IMG/VR virus record: IMGVR_UViG_3300025012_000252
Span: 1 to 27,806 of that record
Origin: a virus
Direction: 5' to 3' (one strand)
Length of the DNA: 27,806 nt
Position 1 is the stretch's first letter. Each line of letters begins with the position of its first letter. Below the pieces are notes generated by a model. The model was not told where the DNA came from. It was given only the letters and a program-made list of their open reading frames with translations, and ran no database searches. Positions 3,656 through 11,010 of the stretch are shown here, piece by piece. The position numbers and the translations under genes were made by a program.

Positions 3656-4008
3656 GCTCGGCGGCTGAACAGCTTCTTCAGACGGCACTGGCAAGGGATC
3701 TTGCTCTCGATTCCGGGAAGATTTCAAAAACTGACATCGTCCAGTCTGTGGGCGCCGTCGGCAGTACTGAAAAAGTCCCGTCGGAGAGGGCTGTTCGTGG
3801 TGCTCTTACGTTCATGCTCAAGGGCGTTGTCTCAGCAGTAGAGCCGACGAGCCCGACGGCAGATCTTCTGTGGTTCGATCTGATGACAATGACAATCAAG
3901 GTGTGGAGCACGGATGTAAACGCCTGGTTATCGTTTGCCGGAGCTGGATCGGCGGTCACATTTGGCGGGGAAGAAGTAACGTTCGGGGGTGGAGATGTCA
4001 CGTTCTAA
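3652..4008 (+). CDS. Small protein of unknown function with C-terminal VTFGG repeats
   Basis: This 118-residue protein is joined to the portal by an ATGA overlap and overlaps the fibre gene by 14 bases. I do not recognise a named family. The middle section, LLWFDLMTMTIKVWSTDVNAW, resembles the short tryptophan-containing pattern seen in many fibre-associated phage proteins, where a value is displayed in a W-x-D...W frame. The C-terminus is a direct repeat, VTFGGEE, VTFGGGD, VTF, encoded by 21-base units. Its tight coupling to both neighbours suggests a partner or attachment role for the fibre that follows, but that is inference from context. It is unlikely to be a shadow because it has its own coupled start and fills the space between two real genes. 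Confidence 0.65.
   Translation: MSSAAEQLLQTALARDLALDSGKISKTDIVQSVGAVGSTEKVPSERAVRGALTFMLKGVVSAVEPTSPTADLLWFDLMTMTIKVWSTDVNAWLSFAGAGSAVTFGGEEVTFGGGDVTF
3955..4008 (+). repeat. 21-base tandem repeat, about 2.6 copies
   Basis: Units run 3955-3975, 3976-3996 and a partial 3997-4008. Each encodes V-T-F-G-G-x-[ED]. The second unit also holds the G-rich ribosome binding site and part of the start codon of the fibre gene, so the repeat end serves two reading frames. The units differ at several third positions, which means the repeat is not a very recent duplication. Confidence 0.75.
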
Positions 4009-7000
4009 GGTGAGGGAAAGAATCATTGCTCTGATAGGGATCATCCCGGTTTTGCTCATTACCTGCGTATGGGCGGCTGTCGAGCTGGATGTTGACAATA
4101 ACGGTGCTCTTGATGTGGATAAGGGGGGGACGAACTCGACGACGGCGGCGGGAGCACGTACAGCATTAGGCGTTGCAGCAACGAGCCACACTCAGGCGAT
4201 CAGCACGGTCACCAATCTGCAGACCACTTTGGACGGGAAGCAGCCTGTGATGATGAACGCTTCTACCCTGGCGCGATTTGGCGCGGGTCCGACTTACAAC
4301 GGATCTCCTATTGGCAGCGGCCACGACATAGAAGACGAGGGAATCGGGGTCACTCAGCGCAGCACTATCAATTTTACTGGAGCTGGAGTAACCGTCACGG
4401 ATGAGGCTGGAAAAACTACTGTGGCTATTCCGTCAGGTGGTGGAGTTTCCTCATTCAACTCTCGCACAGGTACGGTTGTTCCCGATGCCAGCGATTACGC
4501 TTCCCATTATTCGGACAAAGCCGTTATGGACGCCTACACCTCCGTAGGTGGTGGGAGGGCTACGGTGGATGAGGTGGCGGCAACGTATGCCACGAAAGCG
4601 CAGCAGCCCAAATTATTCATCTCGGAATCCACTATACCTATCCGCGCTTCAAGCTCTGTATACTTGGCTGTTTCTCCTAATGCTGGACATATTATAGCCG
4701 CAACCAGCCGCTATATTTACCGCTCAACTGATGGTGGCACTACATGGGGAACCGCACCAATATTCGATCTTGGCGAAGACGCCATGCGTTGTATGTTGCT
4801 GTGGGAAGATTCTTCAGGAAACATTTATTTTTCCTGGGAGGGGGGCACCAACGATGCCGTTAGCACCGACAAGACGGGAGTCTACCGGCTCACCAAGGCG
4901 AATTATGATGTAGGGAATTACACACAAGCATATTGGGTGAAAGTTGTTGGCCCTGCTGCTTCTACAGACGCTACATCACGTCCAAATACCACTGAGTTTT
5001 CCGCTAAAACATGGACGGTCAATCACTACGCATACCCCACATCCACCAAACGAAACGGGATGCTTTACAAGGTAACGGTTGCCTCTTCTGCTTCCACTAC
5101 TGAACCTGTATGGCCGATGATAAAAGGCAAGACCGTTACCAGCGGCGGCACTACTTTCGAGTGCGTTGGAATGCTTGACTGGCTTTCCGGCAGCAATGGA
5201 TACGGCATAACTGAGCCGGTGGCTGGCACCATCATTATGAACGTTTACCATCTCGGGCTTGTCAAGGGTCATTATGTCCTGCGTTCGACTGATGCCGGCG
5301 TGACGTGGACCGATGTGACTACTGCCGAAATGAATGTACCGTGGAGACAGCACGCGCACCAACTGATTACTGACAACACCTCCCCGACAAAGATAGTCTA
5401 TATGGGCGTGGGCGAGATGTCACCGGCTGCTTCTGTATGGGCTGACCTTGCCTCAAGTGTCGTTATCCATACCAGAGTCAGAATCAGCGACAGCAGCAAG
5501 ATGTTTCGGGCGCTCAATGCCGGGACGAAAGGAGCGGAACCTTCCTGGGCCTCTGCCTCCACAGTAGGAGATACCGTCACGGATGGGGCTGGTATCGTGT
5601 GGGAATACCTAGGCGATCCTAGGTGGGCAGACGGCAACGCCTTGATTATGAAATCAACCGATGCAGGGGCTACATGGTCAACCGATTGGGGGATTACTGT
5701 TGCTTCCTTTTTTGATGATGCTGCCGGGGCTGCGCTTACCACAACCCCCTCAATTGCTGGCAGCGTGACCTCCATGCTGCCTATCGGTAACGATGGGACG
5801 TTGATTGCGCAGATAGAGCGGCAAGGATTCAGCGACATTTACAAGCGAACCGAAGCGGGGTCTTTTACGCGAGTATTGAAAGAGGCAACACCGGTTGACA
5901 CGGTAGGTACTGAGCCTATAGAGGTAGGAGATACACCGGCAATGCCAACCTCCTACTGGCGCACTGAGGGGTTAGCAATACGGCAGTTTTCGACCTCTGA
6001 TATTTTCATCTTCTACCTGTGGAAAGCTGGTTACAGGGTTAGCCGGGACAACGGCGATACGTGGTCATACTTCCGGCAGATTGGCAATCAATGGGGCGGT
6101 GGAGTTACCTGGACAAGCAATATACACCCTGACTCCGATAGGGTGATGTTGTCGTACCGTTCCGACACCGGGCAAAATATGGGTTACTGGTCAGTGCCAC
6201 AGACCTATGACAACGCCATTATTCTGGATGTGGCAACCTCCAAGGATATAGATGTTTCCTTCACGCAAAGGGGCTTTCTGGTTACTGAGGATGTTCTTGG
6301 TTTCTCCGACACCACGGCAGGTAATGCGACTGTCGACAAACACGGACTGATGCCCAAGATCGGCACTGGCTTAACCGTGACCGATGGGGTGATTAGCGCC
6401 ACTGCGGGTGAAGGTAGCGGGACCACTATTAACGGCACAGCTTCCGGCGCACTGCCATTTTATGACGGTGATTCGTGGGAGCAGACAGACGGCGCGGGAA
6501 CAGATGGGCTTTTTTGGGACGATACGAATAAAAGAGTGGGAATAGGCACGAATGCCCCAACAAACCCGCTGCACATTGTAGGGTCAACGGCTCTTGGGGT
6601 CTTTGAGCGTAACTCTGCCGATACTTCTGTGCCGTCAAATATTCCCTCTTTCGTTATGCAGAATCCCAACACGACCGACAATAACACGGCTTCTTTTAAC
6701 TTTAACGGATACCAGACGGGTTCTGCTCCGCTGGCATATTTCATAGGGGCGCAGGTTACAGCGGTTTTCACTGACCACACCAAGGGCGCGGAATCAACCG
6801 AACTGGCTTTTGTAACCAGAGACAGCGGAACACGTACCGAGAAACTGCGCCTAAATGCGTCCGGTGCGGCTGTATCGGGATTAAAAATTGACCACGCAAC
6901 CGCCGCTGAAGGCTATGTATGGACAGCAACTGATGCCGATGGAAATGGGCAATGGGAGGCTTTTGCTAGTGGAATGCAATACAGCACTAAAGTTTCATAT

Positions 7001-7924
7001 GGAGACGGAGAAAATCCAACAGATGCTGATTTTGGGAAAGTGGTTGTTTTTACCGCAGGCACAGCTCACACAGTACCACAACTAATAGGCACAGGAACAA
7101 CATACACTGCTTCACCAAAACGCACACTATTAGTGAACGACTCAACTGCTGATATGACCATAGACAGTGCTTCTGCTGGAGATTATTTTAATATCAATGG
7201 TAATCGCAGTAATTCAGCATGGACGCTGGGAGCCAGAAAAAGTGCAGCCCTTGTCCCCTTGGATGCAGCAACCGGCAGCTATCAGGTAGAAGATATTTTA
7301 ACCGGCTCAACAAATAGTATTGGTGCCGGAGATACATCTTTAACGGCTACAGATACAGGCACCGGAAATATAACGGCCACGGTTGACACAGCAACCTCCA
7401 CCGTGACTACAGCCGGTAAATTTGGTGTTGGACTGACCCCTGCTTTCCCTGTGGATATAACCGGCAATCAAGCCAGTAACCCCACTTCACAGTTACATAT
7501 CAGTGCAAACAATTCGTCAGACGGTGCATATTTGACTTCAATCGGCACCTCAACCGCCCAATTGTCAGGGGGCATGGAAAGAACGGCAGGGGCATGGACA
7601 GCAAGAGCTACCAGCGGTTCAGTGATTTCGGCTACCTCTGGTGGTGTTACCTTTTCAGGAGATAACAGCCTGACTATTGGCAACACGTTCACACCTACTA
7701 CTAGGGTGGGTATCAGGGTAGACGGAGGTTTCAGAATATATGGTTCAACTGAGGCCGGAACCGTACCGGACCCAGCGCAACCAACTTGTGACGCGAACAG
7801 CCGAGGTACGTTCTGGTTTGAAAAGGCTGATGCAACCACTACCACACCGGACAGGCTGTTGTTTTGTAGCCATACGAACGTAGCCAATACATACGATTGG
7901 AAAGTCTTGTCAACGTGGCCGTAA
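3995..7924 (+). CDS. Large Asp-box tail fibre or adhesin with a signal-peptide-like N-terminus
   Basis: The 1309-residue protein starts at ATG 3995, with GGGGG at 3985-3989. A GTG six bases earlier is possible but less well spaced. Residues 1-27 look like a Sec signal peptide: basic start, hydrophobic IIALIGIIPVLLITC, then VWA-A. Next come repeats typical of fibres, including SFNSRTGTVV near residue 153. Four Asp-box motifs, S-x-D-x-G-x-T-W, lie near residues 243, 430, 553 and 683 and point to a sialidase-like beta-propeller. Near 849 there is GIGTNAPTNPLHIVG, common in fibre shafts. It ends with a compact Cys/Trp domain around LLFCSHTNVANTYDWKV. The likely role is recognition or binding of surface glycans. 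No catalytic set for a sialidase is evident. Its place between portal and Bbp19-like genes is unusual, and part of the gene is AT-rich relative to its neighbours. Confidence 0.75.
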   Translation: MSRSKVRERIIALIGIIPVLLITCVWAAVELDVDNNGALDVDKGGTNSTTAAGARTALGVAATSHTQAISTVTNLQTTLDGKQPVMMNASTLARFGAGPTYNGSPIGSGHDIEDEGIGVTQRSTINFTGAGVTVTDEAGKTTVAIPSGGGVSSFNSRTGTVVPDASDYASHYSDKAVMDAYTSVGGGRATVDEVAATYATKAQQPKLFISESTIPIRASSSVYLAVSPNAGHIIAATSRYIYRSTDGGTTWGTAPIFDLGEDAMRCMLLWEDSSGNIYFSWEGGTNDAVSTDKTGVYRLTKANYDVGNYTQAYWVKVVGPAASTDATSRPNTTEFSAKTWTVNHYAYPTSTKRNGMLYKVTVASSASTTEPVWPMIKGKTVTSGGTTFECVGMLDWLSGSNGYGITEPVAGTIIMNVYHLGLVKGHYVLRSTDAGVTWTDVTTAEMNVPWRQHAHQLITDNTSPTKIVYMGVGEMSPAASVWADLASSVVIHTRVRISDSSKMFRALNAGTKGAEPSWASASTVGDTVTDGAGIVWEYLGDPRWADGNALIMKSTDAGATWSTDWGITVASFFDDAAGAALTTTPSIAGSVTSMLPIGNDGTLIAQIERQGFSDIYKRTEAGSFTRVLKEATPVDTVGTEPIEVGDTPAMPTSYWRTEGLAIRQFSTSDIFIFYLWKAGYRVSRDNGDTWSYFRQIGNQWGGGVTWTSNIHPDSDRVMLSYRSDTGQNMGYWSVPQTYDNAIILDVATSKDIDVSFTQRGFLVTEDVLGFSDTTAGNATVDKHGLMPKIGTGLTVTDGVISATAGEGSGTTINGTASGALPFYDGDSWEQTDGAGTDGLFWDDTNKRVGIGTNAPTNPLHIVGSTALGVFERNSADTSVPSNIPSFVMQNPNTTDNNTASFNFNGYQTGSAPLAYFIGAQVTAVFTDHTKGAESTELAFVTRDSGTRTEKLRLNASGAAVSGLKIDHATAAEGYVWTATDADGNGQWEAFASGMQYSTKVSYGDGENPTDADFGKVVVFTAGTAHTVPQLIGTGTTYTASPKRTLLVNDSTADMTIDSASAGDYFNINGNRSNSAWTLGARKSAALVPLDAATGSYQVEDILTGSTNSIGAGDTSLTATDTGTGNITATVDTATSTVTTAGKFGVGLTPAFPVDITGNQASNPTSQLHISANNSSDGAYLTSIGTSTAQLSGGMERTAGAWTARATSGSVISATSGGVTFSGDNSLTIGNTFTPTTRVGIRVDGGFRIYGSTEAGTVPDPAQPTCDANSRGTFWFEKADATTTTPDRLLFCSHTNVANTYDWKVLSTWP

Positions 7925-7990
7925 TGTACCAACCCCACGAACGCAGCATCCTGGCAAACGAACTTCAAACACTGTGAGGACCGAAGCAGA

Positions 7991-8350
7991 ATGGATAGAA
8001 AAGAGACAATAGATTTTCTTCGACGCGAGCAGGAGATCGGGGATATGAAGAAGGTCATGGAGACACCGGAAGGCCGTCGGTTTAACTGGCGAATTCTTAG
8101 GGACGCTGGAATTTTCCGGCCGTCATTTGTAGCTGGATCTCCAGACGCAACAGCTTTCAACGAGGGCGCTCGGAACAACGGACTCACTCTCTTGAACGAG
8201 ATCATGACCGAAGCTCCGGGAAGTTTCCTCTTAATGCAAAAGGAGGCAATTGAACATGAAGAGAAACAACGATCTGTCCAAAACAGACACCGGGAGGAGA
8301 CTGATTTTTCTGCTGGCTACGGCGGTATTGACGACTCCAGGGGAAGGTGA
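7991..8350 (+). CDS. Bbp19-like phage structural protein
   Basis: This 119-residue protein has the features of the small Bbp19 family of BPP-1-type podoviruses: a W-x-I-L-R-D segment (WRILRDAGIF), an aromatic-rich FVAGSPDATAFNEGARNNGL block, then a helix ending in P-G-S-F-L-L-M-Q-K-E-A. The family lies beside the scaffold gene, and its exact role is not known to me. GAGGA at 7976-7980 is a moderate ribosome binding site. The last 32 codons extend past the expected end of the domain and overlap the scaffold gene in another frame (8256-8350), so the C-terminal tail is probably low-constraint sequence. Family call from motifs and gene order. Confidence 0.75.
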   Translation: MDRKETIDFLRREQEIGDMKKVMETPEGRRFNWRILRDAGIFRPSFVAGSPDATAFNEGARNNGLTLLNEIMTEAPGSFLLMQKEAIEHEEKQRSVQNRHREETDFSAGYGGIDDSRGR

Positions 8351-9086
8351 AGGAGAAGGCGCAGGGGGAGAGGGAGAAGGGTCAGGCGGCGAAGGTGCGT
8401 CCGGAGGTTCTTCTACAGGAGAAGAAGGCGGTGAGGTAGATATTACCACTCTATTCCCCACTGAAATGGTCGAAGCTCGGAAGGCTGAACTTGCTGCAGC
8501 CAAAGCGGAAGAAGAGCGTCGAGCGGCACTTACTGACGAGCAACGGGCTGAGGAGGATCGGGTCAAGTCGGAGGAGGCAGCAAAGAACCAAGTCCCCGAA
8601 GAGTACGTGGATTTTACCGTCGAGGAAGGCGTCATCATCGACGCGGACCTTCTCGAAGAATTTAAGCCTCTGGCAAAGGAACTCGGGCTCACGCAGGAGA
8701 AAGCTCAGAAGCTCATCGACCTATCGGCAAAGCACAATCAGAAGATCATGGACGGCATTATTGCAGCACACGAGCAGCGGAAAGCGTCATGGCTCGAAGC
8801 AGCAAAGAAAGACCCGGAGATAGGCGCTGACATCAGCCTCTTTGATGACAAAGATCCGGAGTCGGTCAAAAAGTCTGTTGCGTTTCGTGCATTCAACACG
8901 ATTGCTGCAGGGGCTCCAGGGCTCAAGGCAATGGTTGATGAATTGGGAATCGGCAACCACCCTGAGTTTCTTCGCGTGTTCCATCGCATCGGCAAGAACA
9001 TGAGGGAGGACACTTTCGAGCAGGGCAAGGGCGGCGGCGGCGGGGAGAAGACCATTGCTAAATCTCTGTGGCCGGGAATGAATTAA
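8256..9086 (+). CDS. Capsid scaffolding protein with the shared leader
   Basis: The 276-residue protein is acidic and helical and sits in the scaffold position just before the capsid gene. Residues 1-27 form a longer version of the shared leader, ending RRLIFLLATAVLTT. They are followed by a Gly/Glu low-complexity segment (residues about 28-65), a charged coiled-coil region rich in Ala, Glu and Lys (about 70-115), and helices to a short end, KSLWPGMN, like the L-Y-P ending of podovirus scaffolds. Such proteins template prohead assembly from inside and then leave. I prefer ATG 8256 over the in-frame TTG at 8250 because AAAGGAGG at 8239-8246 has better spacing to ATG. The whole leader lies inside the upstream gene's 3' end. 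Confidence 0.82.
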   Translation: MKRNNDLSKTDTGRRLIFLLATAVLTTPGEGEGEGAGGEGEGSGGEGASGGSSTGEEGGEVDITTLFPTEMVEARKAELAAAKAEEERRAALTDEQRAEEDRVKSEEAAKNQVPEEYVDFTVEEGVIIDADLLEEFKPLAKELGLTQEKAQKLIDLSAKHNQKIMDGIIAAHEQRKASWLEAAKKDPEIGADISLFDDKDPESVKKSVAFRAFNTIAAGAPGLKAMVDELGIGNHPEFLRVFHRIGKNMREDTFEQGKGGGGGEKTIAKSLWPGMN

Positions 9087-9114
9087 TCAACTTAAAAAAG
9101 GGGGAAGTAAGTCA

Positions 9115-9324
9115 ATGACACAAAACGATATAGACAACAGGTTTAAGTATCACGCTCCAAAAGAAGGACAACCGGAGAAGTATACGGTCATTCGCAATAA
9201 GGCAAAAGAATTGGCTGAAATGGTCAATGATCTTTGTCCGGAAAGCAGAGAAAAATCTTTAGCCATAACGAGCTTAGAAGAGTGTTCCATGTGGGCAAAT
9301 GCTTCGATTGCAAGACACGAGTAG
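9115..9324 (+). CDS. Acb2/Tad1-like small protein, candidate cyclic-nucleotide sponge
   Basis: This 69-residue protein closely fits, from memory, the Acb2/Tad1 hairpin family. It has an N-terminal RFKYHAP, an IRNKAKELAEMVNDLCP helix, then SREKSLAITSLEECSMWANA and an I-A-R end. Characterised members form oligomers that bind cyclic oligonucleotide signals and so block CBASS or Thoeris defence. Conserved-looking positions include Y12, R27, K31, S44-R45-E46, L54-E55, W60 and R67. The ribosome binding site is GGGGGA near 9101. It lies between scaffold and capsid genes, a place where small proteins of this family often occur, so it would be made late and in quantity. Whether this one binds a ligand is unknown. 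It could equally keep a capsid-linked role. No signal peptide or leader is present. Confidence 0.72.
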   Translation: MTQNDIDNRFKYHAPKEGQPEKYTVIRNKAKELAEMVNDLCPESREKSLAITSLEECSMWANASIARHE

Positions 9325-9414
9325 CAACCAATCCAACAAAAAGGAGGGAAACGGTTTTATCAGTGGCGCAGCAGGAGGACCGAAACCATAAATCAAGTGA
9401 AAGGAGTACAACAG
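9325..9414 (+). other. Spacer with extra ribosome-binding-site-like sequences
   Basis: This 90-base gap holds AAAAAGGAGG near 9339-9348, AGGAGG near 9372-9377 and the true site AAGGAG at 9401-9406 for the capsid gene. The first two have no convincing start codon at a workable distance. A GTG at 9363 opens a frame that merely shadows the capsid gene. No promoter or hairpin stood out. Confidence 0.4.
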
Positions 9415-10452
9415 ATGAAAAGAAAATTTGTCATGGGAGCGGCTATCCTGACAACCACAGCCGCTGGTGCAACCGCTCTAACTCTTGCAGATTGGGCAAA
9501 GCGACTTGATCCGGACGGGAACGTTCCCAAGGTTGTCGAGATGCTTTCTCAGAAAAACGAGATTCTTGAAGACATGCTCTTTGTCGAGGGCAACCTTCCG
9601 ACGGGGCATCGTTCGACCATCAGAACCGGACTCCCTGAGGCAGCATGGCGGAAGCTGAACTATGGAACTCCGCAGTCCAAGTCTCAGACCGTCACTGTTG
9701 ACGACAACTGCGGCATGCTGGAAGCTCGGGGGCAGATTGACCTGAAACTTGCTGCTCTGAACGGCAACTCGGCAGCGTTCCGCCTCTCCGAAAACTCCGC
9801 CTTCCTGGAGGCAATGAATCAGGAGATGGCGGAAGCGGTCATCTATGGCGACACCGATGTCGATCCTGAGAAGTTCCTGGGCCTGGCTCCCCGCTTTTCC
9901 GACATCGGGGCAGGCGCTCCTTCCAATGCCGTGAACATCATCGATGCAGGCGGCGAAGGGTCCGACAATACCTCCATCTATTTCGTCGCCTGGGGAGAGG
10001 ATACCTGCCACGGCATATTCCCGAAAGGTTCGAAAGCCGGGATTGTTCATCAGGATCTTGGCGAAGGGGACGCCTTTGATGCAGCCGGGAATCGCTTTCG
10101 GGCGCTCATGGATCTCTGGCAGTGGGACTGCGGTCTTGTGCTCCGGGATTGGCGGTATGTCTCCCGTATCTGCAACATCGACGTTCCTCTCATCAGGACT
10201 GATGTCTCCTCCATGAAGGCGCTGCTCAACTTCCTGGTCGATGCAGAGGAGCGCATCCAGGATATGAACACCGGCAAGGTTGCTATCTACTGCAACCGCA
10301 CTATCCGGGCGGCTCTCCGCAAGGCGATCATCGAGAAGCTTTCCAACAACCTGACGGAAGAAACCGTCGCCGGCAAGCGGGTTACCATGTGGAACGGGAT
10401 TCCTGTTCGCATCGTGGACAAGATCCTGTTGACTGAGACTCGCGTCGTTTAA
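9415..10452 (+). CDS. Major capsid protein (Bbp17-like) with the shared leader
   Basis: The 345-residue product forms the capsid shell. After the leader MKRKFVMGAAILTT and a short Ala/Thr linker, the family core begins near residue 23 with TLADWAKRLDPDG. It continues with LSQKNEILEDMLFVEGNLPTGH, here cited by its ends only (about residues 45-66), then the patterns RTGLPEAAWRKLNYG, SENSAFLEAMNQ, GLAPRFSDIG, NIIDAGGEGSDNTSIYFVAWG and PKGSKAGIVHQDLGEGD. All are characteristic of the BPP-1-type capsid family. I chose ATG 9415 because AAGGAG at 9401-9406 is 8 bases away. An upstream in-frame GTG at 9397 lies before that site and is rejected. Relatives start close to the TLADWAKR block, so about 20 residues are extra. 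A strong hairpin follows the gene. Confidence 0.93.
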   Translation: MKRKFVMGAAILTTTAAGATALTLADWAKRLDPDGNVPKVVEMLSQKNEILEDMLFVEGNLPTGHRSTIRTGLPEAAWRKLNYGTPQSKSQTVTVDDNCGMLEARGQIDLKLAALNGNSAAFRLSENSAFLEAMNQEMAEAVIYGDTDVDPEKFLGLAPRFSDIGAGAPSNAVNIIDAGGEGSDNTSIYFVAWGEDTCHGIFPKGSKAGIVHQDLGEGDAFDAAGNRFRALMDLWQWDCGLVLRDWRYVSRICNIDVPLIRTDVSSMKALLNFLVDAEERIQDMNTGKVAIYCNRTIRAALRKAIIEKLSNNLTEETVAGKRVTMWNGIPVRIVDKILLTETRVV

Positions 10453-10533: not shown

Positions 10534-11010
10534 ATGTTACGAAAACTGAAGCTCTTCCTCGCGGGAGCGATCATCACGACGATAATCGACAAGTTCAACG
10601 AGTTCTCCGACGCTCAGGCATTCACGACCGGGGCAAATACCTCGACGTTCTCCTTCGACACTCACGGCGCGGATATCGGCTCGGGCGAGAATCTGTATCT
10701 CGTCATTCAGTGCGATGTCACTTGCACGTCGAACGGCGCGGCAACTGTCAAATTCGCCTACGTCGAGGATGACCTTGCAGACCTTTCGACTGCTACCGTT
10801 CTGCACGAGACGGCTGCAATCGGTAAAGCAACGCTTGTCGCCGGGTACCAGGTGCTGAAGATGAAGATCCCCGCAAACACGAAGCGGTATGTGGGCGTTA
10901 CCTACACCGTCGCAACTGCAGACCTGACTGCCGGGAAGTTCTCCGCGTTCCTCTGTAAAGACATCACGGACGCAAAAACCCGGATGTATCCGGCTGGCTA
11001 TACCATTTAA
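10534..11010 (+). CDS. Bbp16-like capsid cement/decoration protein with the shared leader
   Basis: This 158-residue beta-rich protein matches the Bbp16 cement family, which binds the outside of the capsid lattice and stabilises it. Features seen are IIDKFNEFSDAQAFT at residues 17-31, a G-A-D-I-G-S-G-E-N-L-Y-L-V segment near 47-60, and a C-terminal KRYVGVTYTV...AGKFSAFL...YPAGYTI pattern. Relatives usually begin directly at M-[IL]-[IL]-D-K-x-x-x-F-S-D-A-Q. Here that start is preceded by MLRKLKLFLAGAIITT, and the residue where the initiator would be is Thr encoded by ACG. AAGGGAG at 10519-10525 serves ATG 10534. It follows the capsid gene, as expected. Confidence 0.82.
   Translation: MLRKLKLFLAGAIITTIIDKFNEFSDAQAFTTGANTSTFSFDTHGADIGSGENLYLVIQCDVTCTSNGAATVKFAYVEDDLADLSTATVLHETAAIGKATLVAGYQVLKMKIPANTKRYVGVTYTVATADLTAGKFSAFLCKDITDAKTRMYPAGYTI

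Follow-up and report, generated by a model that had tools for sequence, protein, structure and literature searches.

What might a gene for a 69-aa protein be doing among the head genes of an uncultivated phage? The gene (9115..9324, plus strand, like the insert, the Shine-Dalgarno-like sequence, the scaffold-like ORF and the capsid gene described below) lies in a 27.8-kb virus contig from IMG/VR, whose full 27,806 nucleotides form the window analyzed here. It begins with ATG, follows a Shine-Dalgarno-like GGGGGAAG (9100..9107) that by direct reading is its putative ribosome-binding site, and translates to MTQNDIDNRFKYHAPKEGQPEKYTVIRNKAKELAEMVNDLCPESREKSLAITSLEECSMWANASIARHE. A first-pass annotation had taken the product for a candidate anti-CBASS/anti-Thoeris sponge from three motifs, and these are all present in the translation: R9-F10-x-x-H13, I26-R27-x-K-A-K-E-L-A34, and S44-R-E-K-S-L-A-I-T52 with M59-W-A-N-A-S-I-A-R67. 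Its placement of the gene between scaffold and capsid genes also holds. Directly upstream is a scaffold-like ORF (8250..9086), so called for its position and composition only and with no significant match in a profile search, and directly downstream is the gene for a major capsid protein of the GP7 family (9415..10452; PF20911, E 1.8e-136), with a Bbp16-type gene next at 10534. Judged by its PF24729 and PHROG 1454 matches, its relatives and its suppressed non-synonymous change, the ORF is a real gene and not a chance reading frame.

The protein matches PF24729 (Acb2/Tad1, hairpin domain) with 83.4 bits (E 1.3e-23) over profile positions 1-58 of 58, where the curated cut-off is 27 bits. It thereby outscores T4 Acb2 (71.4) and PaMx-type Acb2 (66.5); B3-like Acb2 scores 59.6, the StellaBean mycobacteriophage ‘cyclic nucleotide sequestering protein’ 59.1 and SBSphiJ7 Tad1 34.2. 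The family assigned at first pass was thus clearly borne out by the profile search proposed as its check. PF24729 also takes in the Acb2 of T4, that of the PaMx type and the hairpin of Tad1, and the sponge-family reading is supported. The protein also matches PHROG 1454 (E 4.3e-31), a family with no assigned function, and has relatives numbering 209 in IMG/VR and 368 in phage records. Against its two closest homologues, dN is 0.12 and 0.11 per site with synonymous sites saturated; the gene is under purifying selection, with non-synonymous change strongly suppressed. For finer comparison we built one profile from 59 relatives of the protein (hereafter the branch) and another from 50 classical Acb2 sequences. 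The two profiles align to each other (P 2.7e-6), pairing R27 with K26, R45 with R67 and T52 with T74. Searched singly against the PDB, the protein gave marginal matches (9ptq, ‘Acb2 homolog 43’, E 0.025; Tad1, E 0.23) that became significant only with the 59-sequence profile (9ptq, E 2.4e-5; several Tad1 chains, E ~0.004). PADLOC and NCBIfam searches of the protein returned no match.

Two further observations concern the family at large. Many records of Paenibacillus and Brevibacillus phages label its genes ‘phosphomannomutase’, apparently an annotation error that has been propagated. In addition, some homologues extend N-terminally with a zinc-ribbon-like cysteine motif, KNKCFSPDCNNKSETEFCPECLANGGF (L035:5890-6195, L052:1156-1461, L056/L060:227-532), possibly a fused domain or the result of an earlier start codon.

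AlphaFold2 places helices at residues 3-9, 21-40 and 45-68 of the protomer (mean pLDDT 91). The predicted protomer is, with confidence, Acb2-like, having a short N-terminal helix and an antiparallel hairpin (21-40/45-68), the layout described for Acb2 itself (PMC12043709, PMC10419184). Its best structural matches in BFVD are mostly proteins named Acb2/Tad1 hairpin. Foldseek and VIA-align searches of the PDB gave no informative match, and known Acb2/Tad1 chains were absent from the rows returned; such results are common for short helical hairpins and are not counted against the family reading.

How much of the Acb2 ligand sites does the protein keep? The T4 protein, Vs.4, forms a hexamer, binds cGAMP with an affinity of ~30 nM and blocks CapV; the ligand pi-stacks with Y8/F82 and has polar contacts with Y8, H11, K23 and R79, S74 has an effect, and hexamer contacts are made by L29, A66, A73 and A77 (PMC10097602). 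We set the residue register by profile alignment, in which T52 equals T68 of T4 and T74 of PaMx. R27 then corresponds to K23/K26, A63 to R79/R85, and A50, C57, S58, A61 and A66 to T4 A66, A73, S74, A77 and F82, respectively. Y12 stands 15 residues before R27, just as in Acb2 Y8 stands before K23 and Y11 before K26, so that R27 supplies the basic pocket residue at the expected distance; this pairing of Y12 is by spacing only, as the profile alignment begins at residue 22, and F10-x-x-H13 may instead pair with Y8-x-x-H11. Across the branch, R45, E46, T52, H13, Q19, Y23, P42, W60, N62, A63 and A66 are invariant (59/59), R27 and Y12 are each found in 58/59, and R67 is near-invariant. The small residues at the T4 hexamer interface are kept as A50 and A61 (each 57/59). 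Classical Acb2 has Y11, N23, K26, M81 and R85 in 50/50 each and R67 in 38/50. We take R67 and T74 of PaMx-type Acb2 to be trinucleotide-site residues, and their equivalents, R45 and T52, are retained in all 59 branch members. The pocket arginine R79/R85, present in all 50 classical Acb2 sequences, is alanine throughout the branch. The first-pass annotation had named missing ligand-contacting residues as what would count against a sponge, and the outcome is mixed: R45/T52 are there without exception, whereas the counterparts of T4 R79 and F82 are alanines. A kept trinucleotide site with a dinucleotide site altered in a branch-specific way supports a protein that may well work as a sponge.

Comparison with known proteins places the 69-aa protein more closely. 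Like Acb2 (T4 Vs.4, PaMx41/PaP2, B3-like), it appears to be a stand-alone PF24729 hairpin with a short N-terminal helix and no extra domain. It differs in its shorter hairpin, in having no GYRDLSQEEIDLMN signature, in A63 for the invariant arginine and in an invariant set of its own (H13, Q19, Y23, P42, E46, W60, N62). Given this altered dinucleotide site, the protein, as far as profile and register can tell, belongs to the PF24729 superfamily and is filed there rather than as a classical Acb2. The closest solved relative by sequence, PDB 9ptq, shares P-x-x-REKS-x-x-x-T-K-L-E-E-A but has lysine at the A63 position; we found no description of its ligand in the papers searched. Mycobacteriophage proteins of PHROG 1454 (StellaBean, Xandras, BigBubba) fall by sequence in the same branch, sharing the F-K-x-H-A-P-K start, P-x-x-REK and the W-A-N-A-x-I-A-R end, with StellaBean gp101 36% identical in a joint alignment. 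Their ‘cyclic nucleotide sequestering protein’ label is a homology annotation only, and their role is stated to be unknown (PMC11953737). A literature search found no binding or oligomer data for the protein or its branch.

Taken together, the protein is very probably a stand-alone, hexameric Acb2/Tad1-hairpin sponge that sequesters cyclic nucleotides and acts against CBASS-like signalling. Protomers would assemble into a hexamer like that of T4 Vs.4, in which R45 and T52 would line a trimer-interface pocket for cyclic trinucleotides, while Y12/F10, H13 and R27, with the branch-specific W60, N62 and R67, would form a dimer-interface pocket. The hexamer would hold cyclic oligonucleotide signals uncut, and CBASS effectors, or NucC-type effectors fed by cA3, would stay inactive.

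The alternative that survives best keeps this fold and asks which signal is held. It is possible, if less probable, that re-tuning of the dinucleotide pocket has left the sponge taking up mainly cyclic trinucleotides, or some other nucleotide signal, in preference to dinucleotides of the cGAMP type. The exchange of the classically invariant arginine for A63, the branch-invariant W60, N62, H13 and Y23 with near-invariant R67, and the unbroken retention of R45 and T52 all point this way. However, the phosphate contact could pass to R67 or N62, and PaMx-type Acb2 already has alanine at F82 even though that group's Acb2 binds cGAMP (PMC10419184). A re-tuned pocket is, moreover, compatible with the sponge explanation and does not exclude it.

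A Tad1-like role against Thoeris, by binding of gcADPR, is improbable. In its motif RE-x-x-x-A-I-T-x-L-E-E-x-x-M-W-x-N the hairpin resembles the C-terminal hairpin of Tad1 (SBSphiJ7, CbTad1; RE-x-A-x-A-I-T-K-L-E-E-x-x-M-W-x-N), with 13/25 residues identical. Yet the N-terminal beta-domain of Tad1, which forms much of the gcADPR pocket and bears most of the ligand loops (PMC12043709), is missing from the 69-aa protein. Only ~10 residues precede the hairpin domain, and SBSphiJ7 Tad1 aligns at residues 108-132 only. Tad1 N92, which we count as a functionally relevant position, is K47 here. Of the dual proposal made at first pass, the hairpin-family part therefore stands, whereas the anti-Thoeris half is weak, the Tad1 matches running through the C-terminal hairpin only.

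Is the gene part of head morphogenesis? It lies in a 246-bp insert (9094..9339), which also contains the Shine-Dalgarno-like sequence and has 41% GC compared with 53% for the window, a figure attained in just 0.3% of stretches of that length. A sister phage, L087 (a 45.5-kb record), encodes a capsid protein 99% identical to that of the window and is ~88-94% identical in DNA across most of the terminase-to-head module. The insert is absent from L087 at exactly this place, and the hairpin gene is absent both at the locus and across the whole 45.5-kb record. By BLAST, both ends of the insert align to one 11-nt stretch of L087 (19202-19212), in a Shine-Dalgarno-like AAAGGAGGGAA region; the insert junctions thus lie in two similar ribosome-binding-site sequences. 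Nor is the gene found in the record of L090, whose capsid protein is 81% identical. Because a near-identical phage is without exactly these 246 bp, the hairpin gene is accessory, gained or lost as one discrete insert, and not a part of morphogenesis; a role in morphogenesis was rejected on the same comparison. A capsid-assembly or head accessory protein, though in keeping with the gene's position and with the head and packaging genes that often neighbour its relatives, is hardly credible, given the absence just described, the lack of the gene inside the fetched flanks of any of 83 related capsid/scaffold loci, and relatives that in other phages adjoin genes for a sigma factor, SSB or thymidylate synthase.

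Compared with L087, the window has a structural module that is mosaic in several places. At window positions 3656-7990, a 4-kb segment carrying a tailspike-like ORF of 1311 aa takes the place of ~650 bp in L087, and L087 carries a 2.4-kb insert (652-aa ORF) at window 12314/12319 that the window is without. Structural ORFs at 1704, 9415, 16149 and 16734 start with a similar hydrophobic N-terminal peptide, variants of which occur at 8250 and 10534; these start peptides, such as MKRKFVMGAAILTTT (capsid), MKRIFFKYGAAVLTTP, MKKFICGTAVMTCEP and MKYFSGAAVVTC, lie outside the Pfam domain. Among 129 loci the pattern is confined to the window's clade, bar one chance-looking match. Capsid relatives in genomes (Desulfovibrio, Pelotomaculum, Caldimonas and others) reach at most ~55% identity over the whole protein and are thus too distant for naming a host.

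What, then, would the head operon offer a sponge? No promoter or terminator match was found between the scaffold and capsid genes, and the hairpin gene is therefore probably expressed along with those for the late head proteins. Similar placements recur among relatives. In L001, the closest homologue (84%), the gene has a scaffold-like ORF on one side and, on the other, a major head gene from another family (PHROG 1357); in L059 and L061 it lies between head-morphogenesis and head-maturation-protease genes, and in L041 after the portal gene. In PM105, a B3-like phage, a single small ORF separates the major head gene from the Acb2 homologue that follows it. Head proteins were the commonest PHROGs, by raw count, among 96 neighbours from fetched loci; other relatives are next to genes for a sigma factor and HicAB, for SSB and a ClpP-like protease, or for nucleotide metabolism. 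In phages with unrelated capsids, superfamily sponge genes were seen beside head morphogenesis genes at L001:3160-5461, L059:3319-6043, L061:2632-4945 and L293:1313-2809.

The first-pass annotation had worried that late expression comes too late to counter defence. Because Thoeris can be triggered by major head protein (PMC12578639), and phages deleted for acb2 are helped to escape CBASS by a mutation in the capsid (PMC10419184), late co-expression could suit a sponge, and we infer from these reports the link to capsid-triggered defence. The sponge would then appear alongside the late head proteins, at the stage where capsid products are likeliest to set off signalling defences. The precedent of PM105 and the capsid-triggered signalling defence ease the worry about timing. 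More speculatively, and rather doubtfully as a whole, PHROG 1454 might be a separate sponge branch that joins Acb2 architecture to a Tad1-like hairpin motif and a rebuilt dinucleotide pocket (invariant A63, N62, W60, H13 and Y23; near-invariant R67), recognises chiefly trinucleotides, or else a signal so far unconnected with sponges, and is repeatedly placed in head operons to have the sponge produced along with the alarm-triggering capsid product.

The sponge family is already known, and the 69-aa protein is a further member with a divergent pocket, ordinary in its broad function. Less ordinary are the rebuilt dinucleotide pocket of a large, seemingly unassayed branch, the pair of phages with and without the gene, and the repeated head-operon placement. 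The hairpin gene is a well-defined counter-defence candidate from an uncultivated phage, for which the near-identical L087 offers a natural with/without comparison. PHROG 1454 marks a large, apparently uncharacterised sponge branch, often labelled ‘hypothetical’ or wrongly ‘phosphomannomutase’, and raises the question of whether loss of the dinucleotide-pocket arginine means that a different signal is bound.
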